The notes beneath the pieces are model-generated. The model was not told the DNA's origin. It was given only the letters and a program-made list of their open reading frames with translations, and did no database searches. Shown piece by piece: positions 5,919 through 58,552 of a DNA stretch of 64,000 bases. Position numbers and translations under genes: made by a program. Numbering within the stretch: the first letter of the stretch is position 1; the number at the start of each line of letters is the position of its first letter. The DNA comes from Clostridium sp. (lineage in GTDB: Bacteria > Bacillota > Clostridia > Clostridiales > Clostridiaceae), in contig JARLHR010000216.1 of NCBI GenBank assembly GCA_031292145.1, forward strand, positions 1 through 64,000. The letters run 5' to 3'.

Positions 5919-5979
5919 TAAGTCATATTCAAAAAGATAATAAGTCAGCATGCTAGTCTATTTTCTTTCATATGCCTAA
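5919..5979. repeat. Dispersed palindromic repeat, copy in the sugar operon
   Basis: Imperfect 61-bp palindrome with left arm TAAGTCATATTC and right arm TTTCATATGCCTAAA around a short GCATGC centre. It is a diverged member of the TAAGGCACATGAAAG family found about ten times in this window. It sits between msmE and msmF, inside one transcription unit, where the folded RNA could act as an attenuator or mRNA-stabilising hairpin. Confidence 0.7.
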
Positions 5980-6059
5980 AACTTTATTATATCCTTATAT
6001 TGAATAACGGATATTCGTAAATACGCCTATCCGCTATTTTATTTTATTTCATTATGTTA

Positions 6060-7367
6060 TTATTTAACGTTCTTCCAGTAATTTTGAATATCAGTAGCTA
6101 AAGCTGCTTTATCGCTCTTACCATCAAGATATTTTTGCATTGCTCCACCAAGTTGTGCCCAATGATCTCCTGGTAATGTTGTCATAGGTGCTATAACTTT
6201 TTTGTTTTGCATATATTGCTTTATTGATTTTCCAAGAGGATCAGCTATTTCTAATTTGATATTTGAGAAAGCTGGTATTAAATTAGCTTTATTAACTAAG
6301 AAATCTTGACCATTGTCACTATATACTAACCATTCTAAGAATTTCTTTGCTGCTGCTTGTTGATCTGCATCATTGTTTTTAGTATCTACACCAATAAATT
6401 TAGATGAACCTGCATATATTTGTGAATTACCATAATCATCTGCATTGTTGCTCACTGGAACTGGTATAAATCCATATTGTCCATTAGCTTGGTCAAATTC
6501 TTTAATTTGTGGCCATGCCCAGTTACCCATAAACCAGAAAGCTGCTTTGCCTGTACCTAAATATTCAGGTGCCTTTTCGTAAGTTCCAGCAAGTGGTGCG
6601 GCTTTATCTATGTTATTTGCTTTTAAAACATCAAAAGTTGTCATTACTCCGTTGAATACAGCATTGCTACTTAAATCAACTTTTCCAGCCTTTATATCTT
6701 GTACAAATTTATCCGCTGATCCAGCATCTTTTGATTGATCTAGATATGCTATTGGTAGGAAATGTGCTCCTAATGACCAATCCATTGGTGAAAGAACCAT
6801 AGGCGACACTCCAATACCTTGTATTTTTTGGAATGCTGCTTCTAAATCCTTAGTAGTTTTGATAGAAGCTGGATCAACTGAAGCTTTATCTAATACTGCT
6901 TTGTTATATATTAATCCATATCCTTCAATAGCTAATGGGAATCCCACTTGCTTTCCATCTATTTTAGCTGCATCTAAAGTTCCTTCTGTTGCATCTTTAA
7001 CCCATTTTTCAGACGAAAGATCTGCAAACTTATCTGCAAACTTAGGAATGTCATTAGGGTCAAGCATGCTTAAAGATGGTGCATTTCCGGCTGCATACAT
7101 AGAAGACACCTTTTGGAATGGCGATTCCCCTGCACCAGCTTGAACAATATCTACTGTTATATTAGGATTTTCTTTTGTAAAAGCTTTTGTTGCATCTTCT
7201 AATTGAGTTGCAATTTCTCCCTTTGTGTTAAGAAATGTTATTTTTACATTTTTTCCTGAAGATCCTTTATCATTAGTTGAACTTCCGCCACTAGATCCAC
7301 ACCCAGCTAATAAAGAAACTGTTAAAATACCTGTTGTTAAGATAGAGATTAATTTTGACTTTTTCAT
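6060..7367 (-). CDS. msmE: Sugar ABC transporter substrate-binding lipoprotein
   Basis: CUT1-family extracellular solute-binding protein of 435 residues. A lipoprotein signal (basic MKKSK, hydrophobic stretch, lipobox SLLAGC with the acylated Cys near 23) is followed by a Ser/Gly-rich linker and the two-lobe binding fold (about 43-435). It would be anchored on the outer face of the membrane and deliver an oligosaccharide to the two permeases. It is the first gene of the operon. A consensus promoter lies about 150 bp upstream, with an operator-like palindrome and a cre-like site, consistent with induction by sugar via the adjacent LacI-type regulator and with catabolite repression. Sucrose as ligand is inferred from the GH32 and phosphorylase genes downstream. 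Confidence 0.93.
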   Translation of the reverse strand: MKKSKLISILTTGILTVSLLAGCGSSGGSSTNDKGSSGKNVKITFLNTKGEIATQLEDATKAFTKENPNITVDIVQAGAGESPFQKVSSMYAAGNAPSLSMLDPNDIPKFADKFADLSSEKWVKDATEGTLDAAKIDGKQVGFPLAIEGYGLIYNKAVLDKASVDPASIKTTKDLEAAFQKIQGIGVSPMVLSPMDWSLGAHFLPIAYLDQSKDAGSADKFVQDIKAGKVDLSSNAVFNGVMTTFDVLKANNIDKAAPLAGTYEKAPEYLGTGKAAFWFMGNWAWPQIKEFDQANGQYGFIPVPVSNNADDYGNSQIYAGSSKFIGVDTKNNDADQQAAAKKFLEWLVYSDNGQDFLVNKANLIPAFSNIKLEIADPLGKSIKQYMQNKKVIAPMTTLPGDHWAQLGGAMQKYLDGKSDKAALATDIQNYWKNVK

Positions 7368-7492
7368 AATATTCCCCCCATTTGATATTTGTTTAAATCT
7401 TTACTTTGAAATTATATATAAATAACTTTCTCCAATCCTTAATTTCCAAGAATGGACTAAATTATAAATATCATTATTAAATTATTAATTTT

Positions 7493-7506
7493 TGAAAACA
7501 TTTACT
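7493..7506 (-). promoter_or_regulatory. cre-like site (CcpA) downstream of the msm promoter
   Basis: TGAAAACATTTACT resembles the CcpA catabolite-response consensus TGWAAACGWTTWCA, with two differences (central CG read as CA, last base T). It lies within about 20 bp after the start site expected from the promoter at 7517-7545, a usual place for CcpA repression. Assignment rests on motif and position only. Confidence 0.4.
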
Positions 7507-7516
7507 TATTGAAATT

Positions 7517-7545
7517 ATTATATTACTATATTAACAATATGTCAA
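7517..7545 (-). promoter_or_regulatory. Sigma-A promoter of the sugar-uptake operon
   Basis: On the minus strand TTGACA (7545-7540) and TATAAT (7522-7517) are separated by exactly 17 bp, a full consensus vegetative promoter reading towards the binding-protein gene. The 5' untranslated leader would be about 140 bases. A strong promoter of this kind needs a repressor for control, which the overlapping operator-like palindrome can supply. Confidence 0.8.
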
Positions 7546-7555
7546 CCGGCCGCCA
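7540..7555. promoter_or_regulatory. Probable LacI-family operator overlapping the -35 box
   Basis: TGTCAACCGGCCGCCA is a GC-rich island in very AT-rich DNA. It has a central CCGG and imperfect two-fold symmetry: the left half TGTCAACC would need GGTTGACA, and five of eight positions match. LacI/GalR proteins bind such palindromes with a central CG. It covers the -35 hexamer, so binding would block RNA polymerase. The probable binder is the divergent regulator at 8003. Confidence 0.55.
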
Positions 7556-8002
7556 TATATTTTTAAAAATTTTTTTGATATTTTTTTAGACTTAACAAAT
7601 TCAAAATTTCTTTTTTCTTATAATCTAACTTTTGCAACTTCTCTGTTTTCTATGATACTTCACAAAAATTAATTTCACATTAAAGTCACTCTAAAAAAAT
7701 CGTAATAAACCTTATATATTCTACACTTACTACACTTTATTGAAAATCAATATTTTTTTAAAACTATAAATATTAACTAATATTATTTTTTTATCTAAAT
7801 AACACAACCCCGATATTTCTCCTGCTATTCCACTCTAATTTCAAGTACTTACACTTGGATTTTTGCACACCAAAAGTTTGCGTAAAATTGTAATTTTCAC
7901 ATAATTTCATGAAAATAAATGTCAACATGTTACTATAGATTTTTTTCTCACTTCACGTTATATTTAATATAGTAAGTTTTTAATATGTAAGGAAGTGATT
8001 TT

Positions 8003-8983
8003 TTGCCTAATATAAAGGATGTTGCTAATCACGCAGGTGTTTCAGTAACAACAGTATCTAGAATTATGAACAATAGAGGCTATATCTCTGAAAAAACAAG
8101 GAAGAAAGTATATGATGCCATGGAAGAATTAAATTATCATCCAAATGAAATGGCTAAAAGTTTATATACAAAAAAATCTAATTTAATTGGATTAATATTA
8201 CCGGATGTAAGCATTCCCTTTTATTCTGAAGAAGCAAAACATATAGAAGAAGCTTTATATATGAATGGTTATAAACTCCTTTTATGTAATGCAAGTAACA
8301 ATTGCATTCGTGAAAAAGAATATATAGCTATGCTACAAAGAAATCAAGTTGACGGTATAATCATCGGTAGCCACACTTTAAAATTAGAGGAATATACCAA
8401 ATTGAAACTTCCAATTGTTGCTTTAGATAGATTTCTTGGAAAAGATATCCCTGTAATCTCCGCCGATCATACTCAGGGAGGTTGCTTAGCAGCCAACGAA
8501 TTTATACGTTGCGGTTGCAAAAACGTTCTTCAATTTATAGGAAATAGCCAAGTAGCTACACCTGCAAATGAAAAAAACTTTACCTTCTCTGAAATAATGA
8601 AAAAAAATAATATTAATTGTGTAGATGTGGAATTTCCAGTAAATTTCTTTTCATTTGAAAATTATCTACCTTTCATAAGAACAGCATTGGATGCTAATCC
8701 AAACATTGATGGTATATTTGCTGTGGATACAATAGCATTTGCAGTAATAAAAGAGCTATTATCTCGTAACCTTAAAGTGCCTGATGATGTGAAAATAATA
8801 GGATATGATGGAATTGCAATAGGTAGTATTATACCACCTATTCTTACAACAATTAAGCAGCCAATAAGGGATATTGCAAATTCAGCTGTGTCAACCCTTC
8901 TATATCTTATTAACAATGATAATACTATAACTCCTGGCAACATAAAATTGCCTGTTATGCTATCTCAAGGACAGACAACTTAA
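8003..8983 (+). CDS. LacI-family transcriptional regulator of the sugar locus
   Basis: Repressor of 326 residues. The N-terminal helix-turn-helix with hinge (IKDVANHAGVSVTTVSRIMN, about 4-23, then YHPNEMAKSL) binds DNA, and the C-terminal periplasmic-binding-protein-like domain (about 60-326) binds a sugar effector. The start is a TTG at 8003, chosen because GGAAGTG lies six bases upstream and the protein then begins exactly at the family's conserved PNIKDVA. It is divergent from the sugar operon with 635 bp between them, which fits a dedicated repressor. It resembles sucrose/ribose-type LacI proteins (ScrR/RbsR), but the effector cannot be read from sequence. Downstream lies an unusual tandem palindrome (9028-9063). 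Confidence 0.92.
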   Translation: MPNIKDVANHAGVSVTTVSRIMNNRGYISEKTRKKVYDAMEELNYHPNEMAKSLYTKKSNLIGLILPDVSIPFYSEEAKHIEEALYMNGYKLLLCNASNNCIREKEYIAMLQRNQVDGIIIGSHTLKLEEYTKLKLPIVALDRFLGKDIPVISADHTQGGCLAANEFIRCGCKNVLQFIGNSQVATPANEKNFTFSEIMKKNNINCVDVEFPVNFFSFENYLPFIRTALDANPNIDGIFAVDTIAFAVIKELLSRNLKVPDDVKIIGYDGIAIGSIIPPILTTIKQPIRDIANSAVSTLLYLINNDNTITPGNIKLPVMLSQGQTT

Positions 8984-9575
8984 CTTTCATGTATTATTTA
9001 AAATAGCATTCATAGTTAAACTTTCAATGCATATGTTAACATGTTAACATGTTAACATGTGCATTTCTCCATTTCCTATCCATTTTATCCTTAAAACTAT
9101 ATACCGCCCCACTTTATTCATGTAATATTTCCCAACTCACAAACACTTCTATACTTTCTTTGGTTATCACCTATCATTTCATGCCACTCTTCTCTCTTAA
9201 TTATATCTCGAATCGTTTTCACTACTTTATGATACCAATTCCATATGCATAATGTCAAGTATTCTTTTATAACTAAATAACTTATTCTAATAAATATTTA
9301 GTTAAACTTAGACATATTGTCATACAATCAATAAAAGTACATTAATCTATTAGCGATTGAATTAAGCATATATAGCTATTTGATATAAACTATTCTACGT
9401 ATTTATGATACCAATTTCAAGCTTTCTTAACTTTCGTTACCGTCCCTTCATAATCCAAGTTTTTTAACAACTTAATAATCTCCTATCATTGATTCATCTT
9501 TTAATAAAGAAACTGTTAAAACAAATTTAAAATATCACTTTTCAATCCTTATAACTCATATGATTGTTACCTTGA
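8984..9575. other. Intergenic region without a supported gene
   Basis: AT-rich stretch between the LacI-type gene and a decayed flavin-oxidoreductase gene. It holds the tandem palindrome at 9028-9063. The remaining sequence has only short open frames without ribosome binding sites. Short phrases resemble neighbouring coding DNA, for example near 9505 (AAAGAAACTGTTAAAAC, also found in the binding-protein gene near 7311), suggesting small decayed or duplicated fragments. Confidence 0.5.
9028..9063. repeat. Near-perfect 36-bp palindrome made of tandem GTTAACAT octamers
   Basis: The octamer GTTAACAT occurs three times head to tail. The flanks TGCATAT and TGTGCA extend the whole to a palindrome of 36 bp with a single pair of differing positions. 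It lies 45 bp after the LacI-type gene's stop. It could be a factor-independent hairpin, although there is no T-run, or a multimeric operator. The core AACATGTT also occurs upstream of the same gene at 7923-7930. Confidence 0.8.
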
Positions 9576-9960
9576 CTATTTATTTTTATGCAATACACAA
9601 CCAAACTCAGTTCTATTTATTAATGCATTTGTACATTTTACATTGCAGAATCTACAGTATTGAATTTCTTTTTCTCTGCCTTCCTTGACTTTCAATGCCC
9701 AAGCTTCATCGGCAATAAGCTGTCTTGATAAACCAACCATATGAACTATATTTTCTTTTAACGCCTTGTCAATAAAATCTGGTGAATTAAGCTTACCTAC
9801 TCCACAAACTATTTTATTTGTGTATTTTTTACCTCCTTTGCTAAATCAAAAAAACAACCTTCACAGTATTCACAAATATCCTTCACCGTAATCATATTTA
9901 TATTTTTTTCTATGTACAAACTTTTATACTTACAAGATTCATCATCAATCTTCTTTTAGA
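9576..9960 (-). pseudogene. Old yellow enzyme (NADH:flavin oxidoreductase) remnant
   Basis: Minus-strand translation gives the C-terminal part of the FMN-binding TIM barrel of an old-yellow-enzyme relative. It reads KIVCGVGKLNSPDFIDKAL, then MVGLSRQLIADEAWALKV, then the Cys cluster YCRFCNVKCTNALI, ending at TAG (9578-9576). The preceding frame (EYCEGCFFDLAKEVK) belongs to the same protein but is offset by one base in a run of A near 9830, so the gene is frameshifted. The N-terminal half is missing. The Cys cluster matches the iron-sulfur form (2,4-dienoyl-CoA reductase / enoate reductase type). Non-functional. Confidence 0.75.
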
Positions 9961-10077
9961 AATAAAAGAAGAGGGAAAACCTTCTCCCTCTGGACTTATT
10001 TCTCCTCCCTTGCTTAGACACATTATTAAATTATCATTTATATTAAGCTCTATCGATTCAATCTCCCTAGCTTTGTT
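9936..10077 (-). repeat. 142-bp direct repeat, copy A
   Basis: Runs from GATTCATCATCAA to CTTTGTT and aligns without gaps to 11865-12006, with roughly nine bases in ten identical by eye. On the minus strand copy A has an open frame (IESIELNINDNLIMCLSKGG), so the repeat derives from coding DNA of an unidentified gene. The two copies flank the GGDEF gene and lie immediately 3' of it and of the DUF1062 gene. Confidence 0.75.
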
Positions 10078-10128
10078 TATGATAGTGATTATTGACTTAA
10101 CAATACAATATAAACAAGTAGATGTAAT

Positions 10129-11364: not shown

Positions 11365-11589
11365 AAAATCACCTCTTGTGTTTAATAATTTGTACCTAGC
11401 TAAGAAGCCTTATTCATAATATGTTATAATTATTGAGCTTTTGGCAAAAGCTGCTGAACACTATTGATTACCTTTATATTAAAGATTGTTATGAAATAAC
11501 TTCGATATAAAAGTTAATAATTCTATATAATCTGATATCTTTAACAAATCATATCTTTAAATGAAAAAAACTAAGTATCCAACATAATA

Positions 11590-11840: not shown

Positions 11841-11864
11841 TTAATATTAAATCATCACAAACAT

Positions 11865-12006
11865 GATTCATAATAAGTCTTCTTTTAGAAATAAAAGAAG
11901 AAGGAAAACCTCATCCCTCTGGACTCGGTTCTCCTCCATTGCTTAAATACATTATTAAATTAACATTTATATTAAGCTCTATTGATTAAATCTCCCTAGC
12001 TTTGTT
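11865..12006 (-). repeat. 142-bp direct repeat, copy B
   Basis: Gap-free partner of 9936-10077. Unlike copy A, its frame is broken by a stop after the first residues (ATT TAA) and another near the centre (GGA TGA), so it is the more decayed copy. It lies directly 3' of the DUF1062 gene, 1.9 kb from copy A. Confidence 0.75.
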
Positions 12007-12027
12007 AATAGTTATTTTTGAAATAAC

Positions 12028-15033: not shown

Positions 15034-15035
15034 TT

Positions 15036-15737: not shown

Positions 15738-15765
15738 CCATTTAACCTAATTCTTTTATATATTC

Positions 15766-15836
15766 AAGGCATATGAAAGAAAATAAAAAGTCCAAAATGC
15801 GATGTATATTAACCTGTTATTTTTTAATATGCCTAA
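15766..15836. repeat. Dispersed palindromic repeat copy
   Basis: Arms AAGGCATATGAAAGAAAATA and the reverse-complementary TATTTTTTAATATGCCTAA enclose a 71-bp element of the same family as 5919, 22014, 32794, 43778, 51806, 52675 and 58490. It lies between the two DUF4342 genes, next to the structured element. Confidence 0.75.
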
Positions 15837-21896: not shown

Positions 21897-21976
21897 TGCT
21901 AGTTAAGATTGTTATGCTCTTTATAAAAACCATATTTAGTATAATATTTATACTGAATATGGTTTTTAAATTTTAA
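21897..21976. repeat. 80-bp duplicated hairpin, copy 1
   Basis: Starts TGCTAGTTAAGATT and contains AAAAACCATATT...AATATGGTTTTT, a strong stem with flanking A/T runs. It matches 26228-26307 over 80 bp with only a few substitutions. It has the form of a bidirectional terminator. Confidence 0.8.
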
Positions 21977-22013
21977 ATATAAAAGCTTACTCTATTTTTT
22001 AATTTTATTCATT

Positions 22014-22085
22014 TAAGGCACATGAAAGAAAATAATAGACCAAAGATGCGTACATACTGGTGTATTATTTTTTTGATTGTGCCTA
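22014..22085. repeat. Dispersed palindromic repeat copy
   Basis: Left arm TAAGGCACATGAAAGAAAAT, right arm ATTATTTTTTTGATTGTGCCTA, 72 bp. It lies 20 bases beyond the stop of the minus-strand kinase gene, so it could serve as that gene's 3' hairpin. Confidence 0.8.
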
Positions 22086-22105
22086 GTAATTCACAATGAT
22101 AAAAC

Positions 22106-26227: not shown

Positions 26228-26307
26228 TGCTAGTTAATATTATTATGCTCTTTATAAAAACCATATTTAGTATAATATCTATACTGAATATGGTTTTTAA
26301 ATTTTAA
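26228..26307. repeat. 80-bp duplicated hairpin, copy 2
   Basis: Near-identical to 21897-21976. Here it ends at the stop codon of the minus-strand gene at 26304, so on that strand it forms the gene's terminator: AAAAACCATATT...AATATGGTTTTT, then T-rich sequence. Confidence 0.8.
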
Positions 26308-26654
26308 TTATATGATGTTAACCTATCTTTTAAATTTACATCCTTTTCAATAAGCCATCCTTCTTCTTCACATATACTTCCCCATTGCACTATATCATTT
26401 ATTTCCTCCTTAGTTAACTCAACGGAGATTTTATCAATCACCTTTAAATTTTCCTCGTAATAGCCATTATGCATTTTTAATGCATTTGTTTCTCCTTTTA
26501 AGCCTAGTGAATATAAAGGTTTTCCTTTTGCATCTTTATGATGCGCAACAACATAAAGCCTTACTCCACAATTCCTTTTATCGATTTCTGCACCAATCCC
26601 CCTCACCTCAACTAAAGACCCCAACGGTATGTTATATTTATCCACAAAGTCCAC
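26304..26654 (-). CDS. Hypothetical protein, 116 residues
   Basis: Not recognised. A compact acidic protein begins MDFVDKYNIPLGSLVEVRGI. It has a beta-rich first half (GVRLYVVAHHKDAKGKPLYS, LGLKG) and a helical second half (VELTKEEINDIVQWGSICEE). There is no signal peptide, Cys pairs or membrane segment. GAGAGGAT lies about five bases upstream of the ATG. It is downstream of and on the same strand as the activase gene, with a 108-bp gap, and the duplicated hairpin supplies a terminator. Codon usage and the ribosome site support a real gene. Confidence 0.6.
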   Translation of the reverse strand: MDFVDKYNIPLGSLVEVRGIGAEIDKRNCGVRLYVVAHHKDAKGKPLYSLGLKGETNALKMHNGYYEENLKVIDKISVELTKEEINDIVQWGSICEEEGWLIEKDVNLKDRLTSYN

Positions 26655-29948: not shown

Positions 29949-29979
29949 TAGGCACATAAAAGAAAATAACAAGTCCAAG
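29949..29979. repeat. Half copy of the dispersed palindrome
   Basis: TTAGGCACATAAAAGAAAAT followed by AACAAGTCCAA is the left arm of the repeat family. No right arm is found downstream, so it is truncated. Confidence 0.6.
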
Positions 29980-30048
29980 TTGATTGCACAACTACTTTAC
30001 AACTAGGAAACACAATATGTTACTTAGTTCGGTTAGTAACTATATAAA

Positions 30049-30073
30049 TCTAAGTTCACATTTTGGTATCTAT
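30049..30073. repeat. 25-bp sequence shared with 53307-53331
   Basis: TCTAAGTTCACATTTTGGTA followed by TCTAT is identical at the two places, and similarity continues for about 30 bases to the left (a GTTCGGT...AACTATA-type flank). Here it spans the stop codon and last codons of the Cof-type gene. Confidence 0.7.
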
Positions 30074-30808
30074 GTTTTTAAAAATGAATTTTTCTATAGC
30101 TTTAGCAACACCATCATTATCATTAGTATCCGTTACAAAATTTGATTTTTTCTTAACTTCTTCGCTTGCATTTCCCATTGCAATTCCCATACCTGCAAAT
30201 TCTATTGCTGAAATGTCATTTTCACTATCACCAATAGCAATTACTTCTTCTTTGTTTATATTATAATGATCCGCGAGTATTTCAATTGCTTTTCCCTTTG
30301 AAGTCCCTTTTTTAGTGATTTCAATATTATACTTAGATGAACTTGTAATTTCAATTCCCTCTACCTTTTCCAGTTCTTTTCTAAGATAATTTATTTTCTT
30401 TTTATTTCTATTTAAAAAGCCTCGAATTTTTAAATACCACATACCAATTTTTATCTTTAAATCACCACAATACACTTTAAATAAAGAATTAAAAATAGGT
30501 TTTACATTGTATTTTTTAAAAATTTCTAATAACTCTTTACACATCTGCTCATCAATAATACTTTTATGAATAACGTTCTCACCGTATTTTTCTTTGATGA
30601 CTGCCCCTGTGAATGCAATAATAGGCGATTTTAACCCCATTGAATCTGAATAGGCTTCTGCATCAACATAAGTTCTGCCCGTAGTAATAACTATATGAAC
30701 TCCCATGTCATGAGCTTTAATAAGAGTTTTTTTTGAAATATCGCTAATTTTATGCTTACTATTTAAAAGTGTTCCATCCATATCTATACAAATCAATTTA
30801 TATTTCAT
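30056..30808 (-). CDS. Cof-type HAD phosphatase
   Basis: Cytoplasmic sugar-phosphatase-type hydrolase of 250 residues. Motif 1 CIDMDGTLLNSKHKIS (Asp9/Asp11), motif 2 IVITTGRTYVDAEAYSD, a type IIB cap in the middle (about 85-180), motif 3 Lys (ITKKGTSKGKAIEI) and motif 4 AIGDSENDISAIEFAGMGIA are all intact. AGGGGAAG lies six bases before the ATG. The last residues (NIDTKM) lie in a 25-bp sequence repeated at 53.3 kb, so the tail may have been altered by a repeat. The substrate is not predictable; members act on many phosphosugars. Confidence 0.9.
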   Translation of the reverse strand: MKYKLICIDMDGTLLNSKHKISDISKKTLIKAHDMGVHIVITTGRTYVDAEAYSDSMGLKSPIIAFTGAVIKEKYGENVIHKSIIDEQMCKELLEIFKKYNVKPIFNSLFKVYCGDLKIKIGMWYLKIRGFLNRNKKKINYLRKELEKVEGIEITSSSKYNIEITKKGTSKGKAIEILADHYNINKEEVIAIGDSENDISAIEFAGMGIAMGNASEEVKKKSNFVTDTNDNDGVAKAIEKFIFKNIDTKM

Positions 30809-30908
30809 ATTGTACTTCCCCTACAGTTAATGATTCTTTTGTATCTTTTTCAAATAAACCATAAATTTTAATAATTCCTTCTTTAGGGATCTTCAAAAAA
30901 ATAACTAG
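30798..30908 (-). pseudogene. Short coding-like fragment overlapping the Cof-type gene start
   Basis: A 36-residue open stretch after a TGA (VIFLKIPKEGIIKIYGLFEK, then TKESLTVGEVQYEI) ends inside the Cof-type gene. The composition is protein-like, but there is no convincing start or ribosome site. It is probably the tail of a lost gene between the phosphodiesterase and the phosphatase. Not identified. Confidence 0.25.
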
Positions 30909-30927
30909 TCATATTCCTTCAGATCCC

Positions 30928-32232
30928 TTATTGAAAAATCTCTTCAATAACCCTTCCATCTACATTTTTCAATTCCAACCCCAACAGCTTTGCCATAGTT
31001 GGCCCCTCATCTATAAGACCCATTTTTCCAATAACAGCACCCGCTTTTATTCCACATCCTGCTGCCATAAAAACAGTGGTATAATTTTCTTTAAATGGAG
31101 AATATCCATGGGTTGAGCTTGTAATATCATGTAAATGACCAGCTTCATAAGGTTGAATTTCCCTTATAAGCTCACCTTCTAAATAATCTAAAAAATAATA
31201 TCCTTTGTTTGCTTCAAGCATAAGAGCACACTCAGGATCTGCTCCAAGCGCCGATGCTTCATCCCTCGTAAAAATAGCCTCAATACACTTATATTCCTTG
31301 TTAAAGTTATCTATTAAATCTTTAATTTCGCAAATAAGTTTTTCATTTTGAGTATCCTTTACGTATACATAAGCTGAGCCGTCACAGTTCTTAATTATTG
31401 CTCTATAATCTATTATATCCCCTGAAGCATCAACTTTTATATATTCATTATCTTTAAGAAGTATATTTAAGTTTATTATTTTATCTTCATCAATACTGCT
31501 ATGATCCCCTAAAGCTATAACCGTACTATCCTCAAACATGTTATTTTCCTTTAGAGTTTTTATTATATCTCCTAACCTGCTGTCATGTCTTTCAAGTGCT
31601 TCCCTTGCTTCTTTGGAATGAAAACCATAATGATGACGCATAGTATCCAAATCAGTATAGTGAACAAGCGTTATATCCGGCTTTTTTTCTTTTATTGTGT
31701 ATAGAAGTGACTGGTGCGTAAAGTTATCAAGATTAGGCTGGTTTATTCCATCCCTTAAAGCACCAAACTTACTATTAAGAGTAGCTTGAAATAACGGACT
31801 TCCATTAGAAATAGAAACCATTATCTGATTCTTCCAAGGTCTGTTTGCAAATATTTCAGGCATATTATATTGTATCCTTGACTTAGCTGTTACTGGCCAA
31901 AGTAATGCAGCAACCTTCATTCCACTTTTTATTGCAATATCATAAAGAGTTTCTCCCTTTATATACTTTCTCTCCCAATACCAGTCTGGAGATTTTCTGC
32001 CTGGCTGCAGTAGTGTATTATTTATTATCCCATGATTTTTAGGATATTTTCCAGTAACTATTGTAGCATGAGCTGGATAGGTAAGTGTAGGATATATGCT
32101 GTACACTTTTTTGCAGTAAGATGACTCATTAATAAAATTTTTAAAATTGGGTAAAGAATTAATATATTCGAAATCCAAAGTTGACAATCCATCAAAGGAT
32201 ATGACAATCAAATGCTTTGTTATTCTTTTCAT
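30928..32232 (-). CDS. Alkaline-phosphatase-superfamily phosphodiesterase (NPP type)
   Basis: Protein of 434 residues related to nucleotide pyrophosphatase/phosphodiesterases. Two-zinc site residues and nucleophile are visible: VISFDGLS (Asp), the Thr nucleophile in YPTLTYPAHATIVTGKYPKN, YTDLDTMRHHYG (Asp/His), IALGDHSS (Asp/His) and the distal His in AGHLHDITSSTHGYSPF. There is no signal peptide, so it is cytoplasmic. I placed the start at 32232 because GAGGAG lies nine bases upstream. An ATG two codons earlier is only three bases from that site, and a longer frame reaches 32277. Substrate unknown (phosphodiesters or pyrophosphates). Confidence 0.88.
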   Translation of the reverse strand: MKRITKHLIVISFDGLSTLDFEYINSLPNFKNFINESSYCKKVYSIYPTLTYPAHATIVTGKYPKNHGIINNTLLQPGRKSPDWYWERKYIKGETLYDIAIKSGMKVAALLWPVTAKSRIQYNMPEIFANRPWKNQIMVSISNGSPLFQATLNSKFGALRDGINQPNLDNFTHQSLLYTIKEKKPDITLVHYTDLDTMRHHYGFHSKEAREALERHDSRLGDIIKTLKENNMFEDSTVIALGDHSSIDEDKIINLNILLKDNEYIKVDASGDIIDYRAIIKNCDGSAYVYVKDTQNEKLICEIKDLIDNFNKEYKCIEAIFTRDEASALGADPECALMLEANKGYYFLDYLEGELIREIQPYEAGHLHDITSSTHGYSPFKENYTTVFMAAGCGIKAGAVIGKMGLIDEGPTMAKLLGLELKNVDGRVIEEIFQ

Positions 32233-32895
32233 CGACATTAGCTCCTCTATAATTTCTATATACTCTATATTAAGCATCTACTTATCTTAAAAAATCAAAG
32301 TAGTAAGATCTCTATCTTTTTTAATAGAGCTTTTTTAACATCTTTAATACAACCTTAATTTATCATCGTATTTACTAACTATTATAACACGTACAATTCA
32401 CTATTTTATTTAAAACTCACATGTAATAGCACTTATTGTAATATTTTTAACTTTCATAATCCCCTCTTCTATAAAAAGCGCTTTATGTTTAATTATAGTA
32501 TAGCTTTTTATAAAGTAATCTATATATATATTTATTTTACAATTATATAACAGTAATTTAATCTTTCTATTTATTAATATTCTTGTTGCATCTTCTTGTA
32601 TTAATAAATAAACCACCATTTAAATTCATAAACATGTATCTAATTTCAGTTAATTATAGTTAAGGCTAAATTTCGCATTGTTTATCTATTAAAAAATTTA
32701 ATCATACATTCCTCCATAAGTAAACTATAATATAATAAAAAAGCCTCATTATAACAAAATGAATTATTTTTCCATTCTGAATATAATGTGACTTAAGGCA
32801 CATTCAAAAAAATAACAAATCCACCTGCTAGCATATTGGACTTGTTATTTTATTTCATGTGCCTAATTTGTACAAAAAAATTTTTCTCTTATAAT
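32233..32895. other. Intergenic region with a short peptide frame and a repeat
   Basis: Holds a weak hairpin near 32310-32332 (CTCTAT / ATAGAG followed by T-run). It also holds a 15-codon frame at 32457-32410 on the minus strand (MKVKNITISAITCEF), preceded by AGGGG at good spacing and, about 45 bp further up, by a TATAAT-like box. The dispersed palindrome is at 32794-32866. The peptide is too short to call as a gene. Confidence 0.4.
32794..32866. repeat. Dispersed palindromic repeat copy
   Basis: Near-perfect 73-bp palindrome: TAAGGCACATTCAAAAAAAT at left and the matching ATTTTATTTCATGTGCCTAA at right, with inner arms AACAAATCCA / TTGGACTTGT around GCTAGC. It lies 30 bases beyond the stop of the minus-strand lipoprotein gene and can act as its terminator. 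Confidence 0.85.
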
Positions 32896-37029: not shown

Positions 37030-37190
37030 GTATTTATTCATTCCGTTCAAGCTTTAGCTTCATAGGGCAATGAAATTGCGTTAAAATACGCCTTAAACTC
37101 GACGCATTCTGCTAACCTTCTCATAGTGTCTCCACTACTCCGCGGCAGCAACCCGTATCCCTATGGTAACCTCACCTACCGATTCTTATT
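37030..37190 (-). ncRNA. M-box (ykoK) Mg2+ riboswitch
   Basis: The minus-strand RNA begins near 37190 with the conserved core GGTAGGTGAGGTTACC, then ATAGGGATACGGGTTGCTGC, and later segments (AAGGCGTATTTTAACGC, GCCCTATGAAGCTAAAGC) that match the M-box layout. It is directly upstream of a Mg2+ ATPase and followed by a strong terminator. In the family, high Mg2+ compacts the aptamer and lets the terminator form, shutting off transport. Boundaries are approximate. Confidence 0.92.
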
Positions 37191-43402: not shown

Positions 43403-43777
43403 TTAATTTATTATTAATATATTGTTGCAAAAGCAATTCTATATAATCAACTTTGAGAAATTATGAGGTAATTTCATTATATTTGTATCATAAATTTATA
43501 ATTGCAACATATATATTTCTCTAAACTGTATATTCATTTTGAGTAATAGCAGGGTATATAACATGCCTATAACAGCATACTTAGCAACGTTATCATTAAA
43601 AACATCGAACTTCCAATATTTTACTATCAAATTTATTCGCAAGATCTACTATTACTTTTGCATTATTTATTATACGTTTACACAGGACTTACTTTATAAT
43701 AACATTACATTGATAGCCCTGCATTAGTAATTTCTTTATATTATAGTAAAATATTTAGATTGTTATTATTTTTTATT

Positions 43778-43836
43778 TAGGCACATGAAAGAAAATAACA
43801 AGCCCATCTGCCAAGCCTATTTTTTCATGTGCCTTA
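43778..43836. repeat. Dispersed palindromic repeat copy
   Basis: Left arm TTAGGCACATGAAAGAAAAT, right arm ATTTTTTCATGTGCCTTA, 59 bp, one of the smallest complete copies. It abuts the 3' end of the FapA gene. Confidence 0.85.
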
Positions 43837-43838
43837 AA

Positions 43839-45587
43839 TTATAACGCTGAATTATTAATTATAATTCTTCTAGTTTCTTCATTATAATGTACACTAATAT
43901 TTTTCATTGTTTCTTCTAAGATTAATCTTACATTTCCAAAACATAATATTGTATTTGGGAACGTTAAAGCAGCAGTTATCCTGCCATGCTTTGGCACAAT
44001 TAGCGTTGTAGGTATGTAAGCCTTGCTGCCTACAATTCCAGCACTAATGTTTTCTCCTGAAGACAATACGCCCCCACGCGCAACAGAATTAGAGTTGGTA
44101 AAAAGTATATCCTTCATTGCAGTAAGCTTAGAAGTATATTCTCCCTTACCTCCCATTATTATATTCCCTGTAGACTTTATCTCGCAATCTTGACAATAAC
44201 CTATACGAATATCCAAAGGAGCTATTAGATTTCTATCATAATATTCTATTTCATTTTCTAATATATCTTTAAGACATATTAAATCACTTATATCTTTCAT
44301 ATTTAAAATATTGTATCCCAGAATATTTTCTTTGATATAATCAACAAGTTTACTCCTTTTTGTTTTATTTTTTATATTTAAAGAAACTATATTTAAAGCT
44401 ATTTTTTGAAAATTGCTAAACCTTTGTTCAGTTAATGTTATTATTAAATCATTATTTTTAGAATACATGCCTCTAATTTTCAATTCATTTATATACTCAA
44501 CCATTTCTGATATAATATGCTTAAATTCATTTAAAACGTCTAAATATTCCTTATTTCTAATATCAATTTGACCTGATAAAATTTTTGAATTAATTGCATT
44601 TCCTAAAATAGTTATTTCCCCACCTGATACTACACTTGACGTATTAACATTTTGACTAACATCTAAAGATCCACCAGCGCTAACAAACATATTATCTTGG
44701 ACAGAATCATAAACCTCTATATCTCCATGGAATCTAATATTACAAGTCTCCATATTTACAGATTCTACAGCATAAATTGGATTAACAGTAACTTTTCTAT
44801 TTGCTATATGAGCCTTTCCATCGATAAGTGCTATAATATCGTTCCCTTCTATTTTACATCCATCTGAAGCATTTATTGGCAAGCTTCTAATATATTCTCT
44901 TTTTATTACTTTGCCAAAAATATTCATTCCCTCTTCACCAATGACTTCAGGAATTATTTCAGCAATTTTATCTCCTGAATTAACATTAGAAATTCTAAAT
45001 AAGTTTTTATAATCAATTATTTCATCGGAGTCAGGTTCTGGAAACATCATTTGAGTAGGAGTAAAAAATAATTTCACTTCACTTGGTATATCTTTAATTG
45101 GTTTTTTCCCTTCTGCAATTAGAATTTCCTTTCCTGTTCCTTCTGTTCCTTCTGTTGCAACTTCTAATTCTTCCTCTTTTATTCCGTATACAATTCCCTT
45201 TTCCTTTAATATTTTTTTCAATTCCGCAACGGTAAAGTATTCAGGGTATTTTTCAGAAGCTATTTCAGTAGATATTGCTAAATTTAAAAATGTATCTTTA
45301 TCTTTTAGTTTGTATTCAATTTCTGGCGTATATTGTACAGTTATATAGGCTTTCATCTTATCGTCGGAAATGGAAATATTTATTTCCCTGCTAGCCTTAG
45401 TTTTCTCGCAAGTATAAGTGAGCTTATCTTTTGAAGTCACTTCATATGCTTCATATTGCTTACAAGGTGTATCATTAATAACTAGGTTAATATATTTTCT
45501 AGCTTTTATTGTTATTTTCTCTTTATTAATGCCATCGATTACTATTATTTCCCCATTAACAACTTTTGCTCCAACTTCTCTTTCCAT
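43839..45587 (-). CDS. FapA family protein (DUF342)
   Basis: Protein of 582 residues. The N-terminal part includes a KH-like/beta region and a polymerisation-type linker rich in Glu/Gly (about 145-165). The central DUF342/FapA region (about 165-370, VNSGDKIAEIIPEVIGEEGM, NIFGKVIKRE) is followed by a coiled coil (about 340-420) and a right-handed beta-helix of Gly-rich turns (GNIIMGGKGEYTSKL, GGVLSSGENISAGIVGSKAY). FapA proteins are polymer-forming cytoplasmic or envelope-associated proteins named for flagellar assembly in Vibrio, and clostridial members are uncharacterised. No flagellar gene is near. The ATG follows TAATAATGG-type sequence with a GGGGGATAATA site. Confidence 0.85.
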   Translation of the reverse strand: MEREVGAKVVNGEIIVIDGINKEKITIKARKYINLVINDTPCKQYEAYEVTSKDKLTYTCEKTKASREINISISDDKMKAYITVQYTPEIEYKLKDKDTFLNLAISTEIASEKYPEYFTVAELKKILKEKGIVYGIKEEELEVATEGTEGTGKEILIAEGKKPIKDIPSEVKLFFTPTQMMFPEPDSDEIIDYKNLFRISNVNSGDKIAEIIPEVIGEEGMNIFGKVIKREYIRSLPINASDGCKIEGNDIIALIDGKAHIANRKVTVNPIYAVESVNMETCNIRFHGDIEVYDSVQDNMFVSAGGSLDVSQNVNTSSVVSGGEITILGNAINSKILSGQIDIRNKEYLDVLNEFKHIISEMVEYINELKIRGMYSKNNDLIITLTEQRFSNFQKIALNIVSLNIKNKTKRSKLVDYIKENILGYNILNMKDISDLICLKDILENEIEYYDRNLIAPLDIRIGYCQDCEIKSTGNIIMGGKGEYTSKLTAMKDILFTNSNSVARGGVLSSGENISAGIVGSKAYIPTTLIVPKHGRITAALTFPNTILCFGNVRLILEETMKNISVHYNEETRRIIINNSAL

Positions 45588-51366: not shown

Positions 51367-51393
51367 TATTTCTTCCCCCTTAAAAATTTAGAT

Positions 51394-51412
51394 TTAGGCA
51401 CATAAAAAAATC
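51394..51412. repeat. Partial copy of the dispersed palindrome
   Basis: TTAGGCACATAAAAAAATC matches the left terminus of the repeat family just upstream of the esterase gene. No matching right arm follows. The adjacent perfect hairpin begins 15 bp later. Confidence 0.45.
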
Positions 51413-51426
51413 ATAGCTAAAAAAAT

Positions 51427-51477
51427 AACCTAAGTAGATATAAGAATTTTGTTAAAGTTCTTATATCTACTTAGGTT
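51427..51477 (-). terminator. Perfect 20-bp stem-loop upstream of the esterase
   Basis: AACCTAAGTAGATATAAGAA is followed after 11 bases by its exact reverse complement. On the minus strand the stem is followed by ATTTTTTTAG, the form of an intrinsic terminator, about 60 bp before the esterase start. It can be an upstream terminator or an attenuator in the esterase leader. Confidence 0.6.
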
Positions 51478-51805
51478 TCGCCTGAAATTCAGTAACGATC
51501 CTGTGATTTTATTATGTATACGTTTTATAATATAACTTATATCATCTTTGGTTATTATTGTCAATACGTTTAGAAGAATATTTAAAAAAACTACTTCCAC
51601 TGAAAATACCAAAAAATATTTATGTATCTTAGACTTAGTAGCAGTATAAATAAAATTAAGCCACCTATTTTACATAAACTAAGAAACTTTTCACTGAAAA
51701 TACTAAAAGCAGGGTGTTCAAAATTTGGCTTACACGACTAGTAGTCCAGCAAATTGAATCACCCTTCTTCAAACAACTGTAATTTATCACAATTACATAT
51801 TTTTT

Positions 51806-52077
51806 CAGGCACATGAAAGAAAATAACAAGTCCAAAATGTCATGATTATTTTTCATCAGGCAAGAAAGCAGATTGCTCTCATAGCGGTCCTATTAGGGCA
51901 ATCTGCTGACATGAGCAGTGAACCCAAATCCATGATTTGGTGTGAATCGCTTACTTAGCGAGCGCATGAGAGTCGAGCTTCCTATGATGGAAAATAGGCA
52001 CATTAGAAAAGAGCAGCTATGCTGCAATCTGGAACTTTTCTGGTAGATGAGCTTGTTGTTTTTTTGAATATGCCTTA
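51806..52077. repeat. Enlarged composite copy of the dispersed palindrome (272 bp)
   Basis: Begins with a full small copy (CAGGCACATGAAAGAAAATA ... TTTTTCATCAGGCA). It continues through hairpins AGCAGATTGC/GCAATCTGCT and CCAAATC/GATTTGG, then GGCACATTAGAAAAGAGCAG, and ends GAATATGCCTTA. The final TTA is the stop codon of the cell-wall-binding gene on the minus strand. The GAGCAGCTATGCTG segment is shared with the composite copy at 52675-52877. Confidence 0.75.
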
Positions 52078-52644
52078 TGCTAAAGACCCATCCCAATTAA
52101 GATAATATCCACCAACATATGTATTATACGCCATTGAGCCATCAGATTGTAAATAATACCATGTAGCTCCATCATTTACCCATCCAGTCTGCATTACTCC
52201 ATCTGCATCCATGTAATACCACTTTCCGTTTACATATCTCCAGCCACTCGCAGGAACTCCCTGTTGAATTAATATCCATTTTCCATCCTTAGTTTTTCCC
52301 CAAAAATCACCCTTTACTCCAGTACTTGGTGCAGTACTTACAATTACATTCCCTGGGGCGGAATCAGCCGCAACTGTAGTATTAGATGTTGTATTCGTTG
52401 TTGCCGTAGTTGTTGTTGTATCTGTGCTTTGCTGTGAACTTGAAAAAGTATTTTTATCAGAACTAACCTTGTAATTACTTTTTGCAATATCCGTAGCATC
52501 AAATCCAGGTGCTAAATTATCCAATTCATCTTTAGTATAGGTTGTATCACTTGAACTTGCCGCATATACACAGGTTCCTTGAACTAATACTGCTACTAAA
52601 GCTAAAGTTATTATTTTTAATTTATTACTTTTCATTTTTCTCAT
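52075..52644 (-). CDS. Secreted protein with cell-wall-binding repeats
   Basis: Protein of 189 residues. A signal peptide (KLKIITLALVAVLVQGTCVY, cut near AAS) is followed by a disordered Ser/Thr-rich region (about 30-100). Three glucan/choline-binding-type repeats then follow: SGWRYVNGKWYYMDADGVMQ, TGWVNDGATWYYLQSDGSMA, YNTYVGGYYLNWDGSLA. These aromatic/glycine repeats attach proteins to wall polymers. There is no catalytic domain, so it is a surface adhesin or a regulator of other wall proteins. It is bracketed by two composite palindromic repeats, and its stop codon is formed by the last bases of one of them. Confidence 0.82.
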   Translation of the reverse strand: MRKMKSNKLKIITLALVAVLVQGTCVYAASSSDTTYTKDELDNLAPGFDATDIAKSNYKVSSDKNTFSSSQQSTDTTTTTATTNTTSNTTVAADSAPGNVIVSTAPSTGVKGDFWGKTKDGKWILIQQGVPASGWRYVNGKWYYMDADGVMQTGWVNDGATWYYLQSDGSMAYNTYVGGYYLNWDGSLA

Positions 52645-52674
52645 CTCCTAGAATATTTTATGCATATTACTATT

Positions 52675-52877
52675 TTAGGCACATTCAAAAAATAACAAGT
52701 CAATATGCTAGTCTATTTTCCATCATACTTCGTCGGCATGTTCACCTAATAGTCCACTATGAGATAAACATACCTCCTTGTCTGATGAAAAATATACACA
52801 TTATAAAAGAGCAGCTATGCTGTATATAAGAACATCTCATCGCATCTTGGACTTGTTATTTTATTTCATGTGCCTTA
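52675..52877. repeat. Enlarged composite copy of the dispersed palindrome (203 bp)
   Basis: Starts TTAGGCACATTCAAAAAATA and ends TTATTTTATTTCATGTGCCTTA. The interior carries the AAAAGAGCAGCTATGCTG segment also found at 51806-52077, and a diverged inner copy (GTCTATTTTCCATCAT). It lies 30 bp upstream of the start of the cell-wall-binding gene, so it occupies that gene's promoter region. Confidence 0.75.
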
Positions 52878-53288: not shown

Positions 53289-53306
53289 GGTAAACTATAG
53301 CATAAG

Positions 53307-53331
53307 TCTAAGTTCACATTTTGGTATCTAT
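53307..53331. repeat. 25-bp sequence shared with 30049-30073
   Basis: Identical to the 3' end of the Cof-type phosphatase gene region. Here it is non-coding and lies 18 bp after the 190-bp inverted repeat. Confidence 0.7.
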
Positions 53332-53340
53332 AATTAAAAG

Positions 53341-53364
53341 AAGCTCCTATCTTAATTGGAGCTT
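53341..53364. terminator. Terminator of ppk1
   Basis: AAGCTCC and GGAGCTT form the stem, with T-rich sequence on both strands (TTTTTTT on plus, CTTTT on minus). It lies 13 bases past the ppk1 stop. Confidence 0.7.
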
Positions 53365-53376
53365 TTTTTATCCGTA

Positions 53377-55434: not shown

Positions 55435-55563
55435 AATTATTCCCCTCATCCTATATAAGCTAATTTTTTAACCTAATTTAATTATTTGTATTAATAGTAT
55501 TTAAAATACGTCTTGTATAATGTAAAATATTAAAATGTATACTAATATAATCTAGCATTTTTG

Positions 55564-55602
55564 TTAACTCCACGTTAACAAAATATTATTTATAAGTTAA
55601 CT
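55564..55602 (+). promoter_or_regulatory. PhoP-type box: four hexamers at 11-bp phasing
   Basis: TTAACT (55564), TTAACA (55575), TTATTT (55586) and TTAACT (55597) start exactly 11 bp apart on the plus strand, with 5-bp spacers. In Bacillus, PhoP binds TTAACA-like direct repeats with this phasing in Pho-regulon promoters. A TATATT -10-like box follows at 55608 and the ppx ribosome site at 55626. GTTAAC being palindromic, the first two units also form an inverted repeat (TTTTGTTAAC / GTTAACAAAA). Confidence 0.65.
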
Positions 55603-55637
55603 TTTGCTATATTGTATCATAATTTAGGAGGAAATAG

Positions 55638-57146
55638 ATGAAAAATATTGCCGTAATTGATATTGGTTCTAATTCTATGAGAGTTTTAGTATATGAAATA
55701 TATGAAAATAACTCTTTTAAAATAATTGATGAAGAAAAAAGAATGACAAGGCTTGGGCAATACATTGATGAGGATAATAATTTATCCCATGAAGGTATTA
55801 ATAAATTGTTAATTACTTTAGAATTTTTCAAAATTCTTTGCGAAAAGAACAACGTTGTAGAAATAATTGTAGTGGCAACTGAAGCAATTAGACGTGCAGA
55901 AAATAAGGATATGATTTTATCCTTATTAAAGGAAAATACTGGTCTTGATATTAGAATTTTAAGTGGACTTGAAGAATCAGCTTATGGTTACACAACAATT
56001 CAAGCGACAATAGATATTAAGGATGCTTTACTTATTGATATTGGTGGTTCTAGTATGGAAATTACTTTAGTTAAAGATAGAAAGATATTAAATGGAATAA
56101 GTTTACCCTTAGGTTCAATTCCATTAACTAAACTTTTTCCTTTTGACTCAAGCCAAGATAAAGACATAAAGTCAGATTTCAAAAAATTCATTTATAATGA
56201 ATTTGATAAATTACCTTGGCTCCGCAATGCAAAAAACCTGCCTTTAATTGGTATAGGAGGTACAGCTCGTTCAGTTGGAAAAATACACAAAAAGTTCATT
56301 ACGTATCCTTTAGATTTATTACACAATTATTCAATATCTTTTGATGAAATTAAAATCCTCTATAATTATGTTCTTGATCTTAATTTTAATCAAAAACTCA
56401 AATTAAAAGGATTGCCTAAAGAAAGGGCTGATATATTTACTGCTCCTTTTTCTGCCTTGGCAATGCTTATGGATTATTGCAATTGTCCACTTATTAAAAT
56501 TAGTCAATATGGAATACGTGAAGGTGTTTTATATGAAAAACTTTTAGGACAAAATATTAATAATATTGATATTTTAGAGTTTTCCATAAATAATATTTTG
56601 ACTAATAACGATTTAAATATTGCCCATGCTAATAAAATCCGTGATTTATCTTACGTCCTCTTTGAATATTTAGGAAGTCCACATTCAAAATATTTTAATT
56701 TAGAAACTAAGTTACTTGGAGTTGTTTCTAAATTACACGATGTAGGAGTAAGCATCTCTGTAAAGCATGCTTATAAACATAGTTTTTACATCATAATAAA
56801 TTCTTTAATTTCAGGGCTTACTCATATTGAAATTCTAATGGTTGTCTATGCAGTTGCACTTAGTGGGAAATTTGATTATAAATTAGCTGATGAATATAAA
56901 GATTTATTGACCAAGGATCAACTCCTTATATGCAAAAAACTTTCAGTAATTTTATGTATTGCTCATAAAATTGATAAATATTTTTACAACAGCTTAACTG
57001 AAGTTATTATTATTAATGAAAAAGATAATTTTAAATTGGCTCTTCCTAAAGCTAGCGTAAAGTACCTGAAAGATAGCTTACCTGTAGAAATGGATGAGAG
57101 CTTTAAGAAATGTTTTGATAGAAAATTGTCCTTTATAGAATTATAG
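55638..57146 (+). CDS. ppx: Exopolyphosphatase / guanosine pentaphosphatase (Ppx/GppA)
   Basis: Protein of 502 residues that removes terminal phosphates from polyphosphate (and may act on pppGpp). The ASKHA ATPase fold is seen: AVIDIGSNSMRVLVYEI (phosphate-1 loop, about 4-20), ATEAIRRAEN, SGLEESAYGY (catalytic Glu), LIDIGGSSMEITLV (about 130-143) and GIGGTARSVGKIH. The C-terminal region (about 320-500) has an HD-like helical bundle (SKLHDVGVSIS, HAYKHSFYIIINS) as in long Ppx proteins. AGGAGG lies seven bases before ATG. The PhoP-type box upstream suggests induction on phosphate starvation. Confidence 0.94.
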   Translation: MKNIAVIDIGSNSMRVLVYEIYENNSFKIIDEEKRMTRLGQYIDEDNNLSHEGINKLLITLEFFKILCEKNNVVEIIVVATEAIRRAENKDMILSLLKENTGLDIRILSGLEESAYGYTTIQATIDIKDALLIDIGGSSMEITLVKDRKILNGISLPLGSIPLTKLFPFDSSQDKDIKSDFKKFIYNEFDKLPWLRNAKNLPLIGIGGTARSVGKIHKKFITYPLDLLHNYSISFDEIKILYNYVLDLNFNQKLKLKGLPKERADIFTAPFSALAMLMDYCNCPLIKISQYGIREGVLYEKLLGQNINNIDILEFSINNILTNNDLNIAHANKIRDLSYVLFEYLGSPHSKYFNLETKLLGVVSKLHDVGVSISVKHAYKHSFYIIINSLISGLTHIEILMVVYAVALSGKFDYKLADEYKDLLTKDQLLICKKLSVILCIAHKIDKYFYNSLTEVIIINEKDNFKLALPKASVKYLKDSLPVEMDESFKKCFDRKLSFIEL

Positions 57147-57252
57147 ACAAAACAAACTATATAACCACAAATTTATTGCCTAAAAATTTTATATAATGTA
57201 TTATGTAAATTAATTACTAAAATATATAAACTAAGGAGATAATTAATATTAT

Positions 57253-58461
57253 ATGAAATTTGAACTCGATAAAAAATTACTTAAATATTCAATATATGTA
57301 ACTATTACAGCAATAATAATGTATATAGTATTTTTAATCATTCCAAATATAGGATTAATATTTGAAAAACTATTTAACATTTTCGCGTATTTAATCGGCT
57401 TAATTAAACCTTTGCTTATTGGAATTGTAATTGCCTATTTATTATATCCACTTACTAAAACCATTGAAATATTTTTAGAGAAGAATAAATTATACGGAAT
57501 TAAAAAAGGCTCAATTAGACGTGCTTTCGCCATTACATTCTCATACTTTTTGATAGTAGGCATTTTTTTAGGATTAATATTGGGAATTTATTTTATGGTT
57601 GGTGGACAACTATCAAATAATACAACTATAACAAATATAGCTCAGCATATAATTTTATATATAAGCAACAATTCCTTTTCACCACACTCAATAAAAGAAA
57701 CTTTGGATAAAATCAATAGCCCTTTAGTAGATAGCATTAAACCATACATTATTGATGGAATTACTTATTTACAAAACTATGTTCAAAATAACCTTGGAAA
57801 TATGACATCTTATGCTATGTCTATAGGAAGTAGTGTTGCAATATTTTTCATTTCCCTTGTAATTAGTATATATCTTTTAAACGATTCGGAGTATTTTCTT
57901 GACTTATGGCATAAGCTTTATTATTTAATATTTAGAAAAAGTGCTGTTGGCTGCAAAATAAACTATGTTTTTAAAGTAGTTCATCAATCATTTGTTAAGT
58001 ACCTTAGGGGGCAATTATTAGAGGCATTTTTTGTTGGCGTTTTATCTGCTATTTCTCTTTCTATTGTAGGTATAGATTATGCTTTTGTAATTGGTATTTT
58101 TGCTGGTATAACTAACATGATTCCTTTCGTAGGCCCAATAGTAGGTACAATTCTTGCTGCAATCATGGGTTTACTTAGTGGAACACCTATTAAAATACTT
58201 TATGCTGTCATAGCTATGCTGATAGTTCAGCAAATTGATGGTCACCTTTTAGCACCTAAAATTGTTGGCGATAGCGTTGGATTACATGCGGTCTTTACAA
58301 TTCTAGCAATTTTAATTGGTGGCGACGTGGGTGGTATATTAGGAATGCTTCTTGCAGTTCCAATAGCAGCTTCATGTAAGGTTCTTCTTAATAATTGGTA
58401 TGAAAATTACATGAAAGATCAGAATGATTCCAATAATCCTAAACAGTATAATAAAGAATAA
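57253..58461 (+). CDS. AI-2E family transporter (membrane permease)
   Basis: Membrane protein of 402 residues of the AI-2E/TqsA/YtvI family with about eight helices. The N-terminal helices include YSIYVTITAIIMYIVFLIIP and LIKPLLIGIVIAYLLYPLTK. A large loop domain (about 120-210) follows, then the conserved C-terminal block GIDYAFVIGIFAGITNMIPF, VGPIVGTILAAI, and QQIDGHLLAPKIVGDSVGLH. Despite the family name, members export many small molecules, and some are Na+/H+ antiporters. AGGAGATAATTAAT lies upstream of the ATG. It is 106 bp after ppx and may be read from its promoter or its own. Confidence 0.9.
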   Translation: MKFELDKKLLKYSIYVTITAIIMYIVFLIIPNIGLIFEKLFNIFAYLIGLIKPLLIGIVIAYLLYPLTKTIEIFLEKNKLYGIKKGSIRRAFAITFSYFLIVGIFLGLILGIYFMVGGQLSNNTTITNIAQHIILYISNNSFSPHSIKETLDKINSPLVDSIKPYIIDGITYLQNYVQNNLGNMTSYAMSIGSSVAIFFISLVISIYLLNDSEYFLDLWHKLYYLIFRKSAVGCKINYVFKVVHQSFVKYLRGQLLEAFFVGVLSAISLSIVGIDYAFVIGIFAGITNMIPFVGPIVGTILAAIMGLLSGTPIKILYAVIAMLIVQQIDGHLLAPKIVGDSVGLHAVFTILAILIGGDVGGILGMLLAVPIAASCKVLLNNWYENYMKDQNDSNNPKQYNKE

Positions 58462-58489
58462 CTTATGTAAATAATTTATTCATATTATA

Positions 58490-58552
58490 TAAGGCACATG
58501 ATAGAAAATAATAGACTAGTATGGTTGTCTATTATTTTCCTTCATGCGCCTA
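58490..58552. repeat. Dispersed palindromic repeat copy
   Basis: TAAGGCACATGATAGAAAAT and ATTTTCCTTCATGCGCCTA, with inner arms AATAGAC(TA) / (TT)GTCTATT, 63 bp. It lies between the convergent AI-2E and transglutaminase-like genes, 28 bp past the AI-2E stop. Confidence 0.85.

Follow-up and report, generated by a model that had tools for sequence, protein, structure and literature searches.

The stretch of Clostridium sp. DNA analysed here (the window; 64,000 nucleotides, positions 1 to 64,000 of contig JARLHR010000216.1, our contig C118) has a G+C content of 29% and belongs to a host assembly of 6.34 Mb in 282 contigs (GCA_031292145.1). An earlier note, made from the letters alone, had listed ten places in the window at which a dispersed palindromic repeat lies, and this repeat, the subject of the present report, was found at all of them as described.

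Window copies and anatomy of the element

Eight of the window places hold full copies. Their flanking trinucleotides, discussed below as a target duplication, agreed perfectly in five: the short copies at 5919..5979 (plus strand, TAA/TAA included in these limits; covariance model E 5.1e-5), 32794..32866 (plus, TAA/TAA; E 3.7e-14), 43777..43836 (minus, TTA/TTA; E 1e-5), near the stop of the open reading frame (ORF) 43839-45587, and 58490..58553 (plus, TAA/TAA; E 7.7e-8), between convergent ORFs, together with a 199-bp copy at 52675..52877 (plus, TTA/TTA; E 1.1e-20) consisting of the canonical core and one hairpin cassette A (52797..52838, plus, limits approximate; repeat family D11). The duplication was one mismatch off in the short copies at 15765..15836 (minus, CAA/TAA; E 1e-9) and 22014..22086 (minus, TAA/TAG; E 3.1e-14) and in a 269-bp copy at 51805..52077 (minus, TCA/TTA), in which the core is joined by cassette B (51919..51982) and cassette A (51997..52043), both on the plus strand with approximate limits. 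On the minus strand, the ORF 52075-52644 uses the right TTA of the latter copy (52075-52077) as its stop codon; the earlier statement that all copies lie between genes thus holds for the window with this one exception (51807-52075). Partial copies with a single end and no assigned strand lie at 29949..30020 (weak model match, E 0.13) and at 51394..51480, the latter adjoining another hairpin, with the model matching the hairpin at 51427-51477 alone (E 0.06). The E values come from a covariance model of 41 copies outside the window, a check which the earlier note had suggested, and the model recovered all eight full copies (E <= 5.1e-5), the 51807 copy in two pieces (51807-51956, E 5.9e-9; 51996-52075, E 0.0023). 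A further 44-nt match at 30885-30928 (E 1.5e-4) was not counted as a copy. Two 111-bp direct repeats, 89% alike and with a terminator-like hairpin, were also seen (21897-22007 and 26228-26338), the first of which stops 6 bp before the 22014 copy.

In the host assembly the 18-base arm motif AGGCACATGAAAGAAAAT gave 193 forward and 194 reverse matches with up to two mismatches, and the same motif read backwards gave 0 and 0, which excludes chance as the source of the repeat; with 387 arm-motif matches the family extends far beyond the roughly ten copies first reported. The covariance model led to at least 150 host matches at E <= 0.01 (150 of 8425 candidates scored), and among the matches listed all those above 140 bits were 157-162 bp long. 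Model matches start at base 1 of six host contigs (C69, C167, C211, C174, C237 and C154), where the copy number may be under-counted because the repeat breaks the assembly.

When arm ends were paired at the first loci, the lengths fell mainly into two classes (about 51-75 bp and about 158-162 bp), beyond which longer forms made up a tail. The canonical unit has 157-163 bp, aligns as one unit across 41 copies and forms an imperfect palindrome over its full length, with outer arms of about 27 bp; at this length there is room for a short peptide at most. Compared with it, the window copies of 56-69 bp, previously taken as complete or nearly complete, lack the middle part and are internally deleted. 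The two arms are related and keep fixed differences (GGCACAWTCAAAAAAATAA vs GGCACATGAAAGAAAATAA), so that the element has an orientation. As copies were gathered by mismatch-limited end motifs, diverged copies are missed in these counts and some ends are perhaps mispaired.

Target duplication, empty sites and spread

The same trinucleotide was detected on both sides in 39 of 41 canonical copies. Within 1.92 Mb of sequence, 213 of 263 copies showed a perfect 3-bp duplication (TTA 112, TAA 101), compared to a mean of 113 and a maximum of 136 in 1000 permutations, and the fourth base agreed in just 49 (left) or 31 (right) of these 213. A further 1.59 Mb from the relative G022 added 93 of 136 copies, leading to 306 of 399 in the combined set. 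Since a flanking T is matched by T and an A by A, the flanks represent a direct repeat and not an extension of the hairpin. The element ends in GGCACAT...ATGTGCC, and the T(T/A)A in front, formerly read as its terminus, is a target duplication of TTA or TAA, the earlier note having suggested a look for TA or TTA duplications. Perfect duplications were present in all length classes (<50 bp, 1/1; 50-75 bp, 98/134; 76-150 bp, 35/52; 151-165 bp, 130/161; 166-220 bp, 7/10; 221-250 bp, 25/28; >250 bp, 10/13), the internally deleted and cassette-bearing forms having the same 3-bp duplication as the canonical unit.

Empty orthologous sites, which the earlier note had asked for, were searched with the joined flanks of 390 copies against all collected sequence (gap-free, at least 80% identity over 42 nt at the junction). 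This led to nine rows, six of them exact, each empty site having a single TTA or TAA. The exact sites belong to a 161-bp host copy (L129) that lies within a member of a different repeat family, to two C. uliginosum copies (L048, 57 bp; L080, 159 bp), to copies of G049 (L261, 160 bp) and G067 (L154, 158 bp), both compared with G022, and to a 227-bp copy of G022 (L295) compared with the host, a length class often with cassette B. An empty counterpart of L010 (G002) was present in L232 (G007), but the right duplication of the copy has decayed and it was not counted as exact; here the insertion changes the end of what we read as an ABC-transporter ATPase gene, affecting its final residues. Also set aside were L012, which has no TWA target (W being A or T), L041, a self-match, and L134:8109, where the copy is absent from six relatives but the surroundings differ.

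For the position relative to genes a simple longest-ORF caller was used instead of an annotation. Only 25 of 203 copies with perfect duplication were inside called ORFs, compared to 69% of TWA sites. Among the remaining 178 copies, 14 coincided exactly with a TAA stop codon, where 2.3% would be expected from a background that counts overlapping loci more than once (p = 7e-5). When 100 open codons upstream were demanded in a separate count, 15 of 202 copies were exactly at the stop, a kind to which the window copy 51805-52077 also belongs, and in 8 rows of the same count a TAG was made from the target TA and the first G of the element. Copies were found near both gene ends, with medians of 81 bp (3') and 107 bp (5'), and their orientation to tandem genes was not significant (55 vs 37, p = 0.08), so the suggestion that they supply 3' hairpins has not been borne out.

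The element is short and bounded by terminal inverted repeats, its copies are many and dispersed, and it has a target duplication and empty sites, as in the structural definition of a miniature inverted-repeat transposable element (MITE). Very probably it is a non-autonomous, non-coding MITE with a 3-bp TTA/TAA duplication; its movement would depend on a DDE-type transposase acting in trans, and copies would survive mainly where little harm is done. The transposase, encoded elsewhere, would cut the element at both ends and join these to TWA sites opened with a 3-bp stagger, in the manner of IS5-group and PIF-Harbinger elements. Places of low harm would be intergenic ones and TAA stop codons; at the latter a stop would be restored by the duplicated TAA or by TA together with the first G of the element. 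Several observations weigh against this assignment. A perfect duplication is missing in 93 of 399 copies (71 one base off, 22 off by more than one base), the strong covariation and the conserved internal arm differences described below are superfluous for a plain MITE, and the transposase gene with these ends that the earlier note had expected was not found in the sequence examined, which covers a small part of most carrier genomes, no search having been aimed at Y1 genes.

Three transposase families and a class-blind scan were included in this search. PF13359 was absent from the host and gave one match in 67 genus genomes (L170), which is presumably IS982-like. PF13340 was present in 4 of 67 genus genomes, and the two elements with delimitable ends carry other ends. 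For PF01609 there were 100 matches across 8 genomes; none of the 30 loci examined was bounded by the element ends, save for an IS4-family insertion sequence (IS) nested inside a copy (L186:996-2653, G022), which is an unrelated IS in cassette B with a 10-bp repeated flank. The class-blind scan, which looked for an ORF enclosed by TWA-flanked ends (1.92 and 1.59 Mb), revealed no autonomous partner. It did lead to an IS with a transposase inside a short copy (L286:17992-19581, G022; 8-bp repeated flank, by eye), unrelated as well, which we take to be of IS256 type and of which a 53-residue fragment matched no Pfam family; the remaining end pairings were judged chance, with weak ends or ordinary genes. 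The transposase gene may thus have been lost or may lie outside the sequence examined.

The distribution of the element among genomes of the order is patchy, and copy number varies widely among related genomes. Allowing up to one mismatch, 23 of 68 genus genomes contained the 18-base motif; for a 20-base version 33 of 225 order genomes had matches and 192 had none (counts: host 215; G065, C. uliginosum, 248; G022 133; G185, of another genus, 183). Carriers among the matches listed included C. uliginosum, C. frigidicarnis, C. chromiireducens, C. beijerinckii and C. puniceum. For 103 canonical copies, the nearest relative was within the same species in 36/40 cases for the host, 17/20 for C. uliginosum, 12/13 for C. 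frigidicarnis, 0/5 for G022 and 1/6 for G049, which would fit separate bursts in the first three. Median nearest identity was 0.96 in the comparison of the 40 host copies, and judged from this identity the family appears to have been active recently, in support of the recent spread suggested before. Over 165 nt, one C. uliginosum copy shares 97.6% identity with host copies, compared to a median of 74.6% (maximum 86%) for 27 homologous stretches of at least 400 bp, and for this reason a recent horizontal transfer of this copy is probable. Plasmid records (72,556) and phage records (50,697) contained no match to the element; a single IMG/VR match (L106) was judged chance from its sequence. None of the three outcomes that the earlier note had named as refuting its reading (few further copies, no empty sites, no covariation between arms) was seen.

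Arm pairing and cassettes

The fold of a single copy has an energy of -64.8 kcal/mol (z -9.4). In the alignment of 41 copies 91.8% of the cells pair and 25 of 55 pairs have changed on both sides, a level reached by none of 500 shuffles and not approached when the arms were slid by 1-3 columns, confirming the paired arm changes noted earlier. The matching of the arms may, tentatively, be explained by arm-to-arm copying (template switching or hairpin repair) without any selection, which bears on the covariation alone and is compatible with a MITE. Such copying is suggested by cassette A, which occupies corresponding sites in one arm or in both, and by cassette B in either arm (both as seen in copies at L002, L139 and L127), and further by two arm subfamilies whose differences span a stretch of adjacent paired positions. 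We nevertheless regard it as rather doubtful, as the fixed differences between the arms hold across species and frequent conversion would erase them.

Retention of the copies as structured RNA, either as a terminator or a stability element with the hairpin selected as RNA, is improbable. It would account for the changes on both sides of the pairs, and on the complementary strand of 103 copies G.U-type mispairs exceed A.C-type ones (213 vs 89). On the modelled strand the ratio is reversed (213 A.C-type, 89 G.U-type), transversion mispairs (416) exceed both, and in the 41-copy alignment A.C mispairs (110 cells) are not below G.U (82); as mispair cells are not independent, however, these counts do not decide between RNA and DNA. 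Neither the mispairs on the modelled strand nor the orientation to genes bears out the selection for an RNA fold suggested by the earlier note. Rfam gave no match for the element at gathering score, and in a permissive scan of one copy all matches were far below the gathering scores. The only Rfam match of the window at that score is an M-box (magnesium) riboswitch elsewhere (37030-37190, minus strand, 97 bits). Direct repeats of 149 bp, 89% alike, were also observed at 9932-10080 and 11861-12009.

Both cassettes fold weakly at best (z -1.9 and -1.4), and cassette A can be repeated in tandem. Cassette B (about 64 nt) was detected at 38 places by one motif, 16 within detected copies and 22 outside, of which at least three (window 51968, L136:11642 and L266:19669) are family copies missed or split by the boundary caller. 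Others of the 22 are in a palindromic family of a second kind, within its arm (L122, L123, L124, and L259 by eye), or, by eye, in further contexts (L020, L136:1009, L271). Cassette B may move independently. We consider it possible, though clearly short of probable, that the palindromes act as docking platforms, with cassette B moving alone between unrelated palindromic families as an exchangeable module nested in MITEs, and with the matched arms letting a module be copied to the corresponding position in the opposite arm.

The second dispersed family, found in the host at L134:10505-10815 and at similar places in relatives, was followed by the motifs GGCATTTGAAAATGAGCTGTTAAA and CAGCGATATTTTCATAGTCC. 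Over 464 kb of host sequence the two motifs matched 18 and 20 times. G022 had 23-24 matches over 1.69 Mb, the C. uliginosum loci had 0-1 and those of C. frigidicarnis none, and the family had no Rfam match. By eye, window positions 29980-30085, by the partial copy at 29949, resemble its tail, and 30044-30084 pairs with 53302-53342 in the repeat search.

Comparison with known systems

A full-text literature search of 5.39 million papers for six stretches of element sequence returned no paper, other literature searches led to no title or abstract opening describing such a family, and the main text of a 2024 review of prokaryotic MITEs (PMC10969869) has no word starting with Clostrid. This large clostridial MITE family thus appears not to be described in the literature searched. 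It shows a clean TWA signature of 3 bp together with exact empty sites, and one interspecies transfer is probable. The family offers a natural dataset for asking which transposase acts at TWA in these bacteria, how the arms of a palindrome stay matched and how landing on a TAA stop limits damage.

The earlier note had left the choice between a miniature inverted-repeat and a repetitive extragenic palindromic (REP)-like element, of which the former stands by duplication and empty sites. The REP/REPIN elements with their RAYT transposases are alike in hairpin, intergenic place and many copies, but movement as single-stranded DNA by a hairpin-recognising Y1 (TnpA/RAYT) transposase is hardly credible despite the stable fold, because a 3-bp target duplication and exact empty sites are present and Y1 insertion or REP movement is not known to leave a target duplication.

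Members of the PIF-Harbinger/IS5 group have TWA or TNA targets and ends beginning with GG. The 3-bp TWA-type duplication and the GG at the start of the ends are shared with this group and its Tourist-type MITEs; the difference is that no transposase of the group with matching ends was found (PF13359 and PF13340, see above). For canonical Harbinger elements a 3-bp target duplication is given in a passage of PMC12730594. The Correia/NEMIS, RUP and ERIC elements and other small bacterial MITEs are alike in being non-coding and below about 200 bp, with terminal inverted repeats, target duplication and stable hairpin transcripts, and Correia elements also have two forms of 107 and 155 bp, the longer with a 50 bp inner piece; as far as the cited part of PMC2229807 goes, they have mostly a terminal TA motif, in contrast to the 3-bp TTA/TAA duplication of the Clostridium element.

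The BOX elements of Streptococcus pneumoniae (67 to 637 bp) are, according to a section of PMC3049150, alike in dispersal, modular build, variable number of inner modules and predicted RNA fold. The Clostridium element differs in being one long palindrome with cassettes in either arm, and the likeness described here is one of architecture. Cassettes joining the arms would thereby give a BOX-like modular series, allowing a comparison of modular growth in small mobile elements, which is so far best known from BOX.

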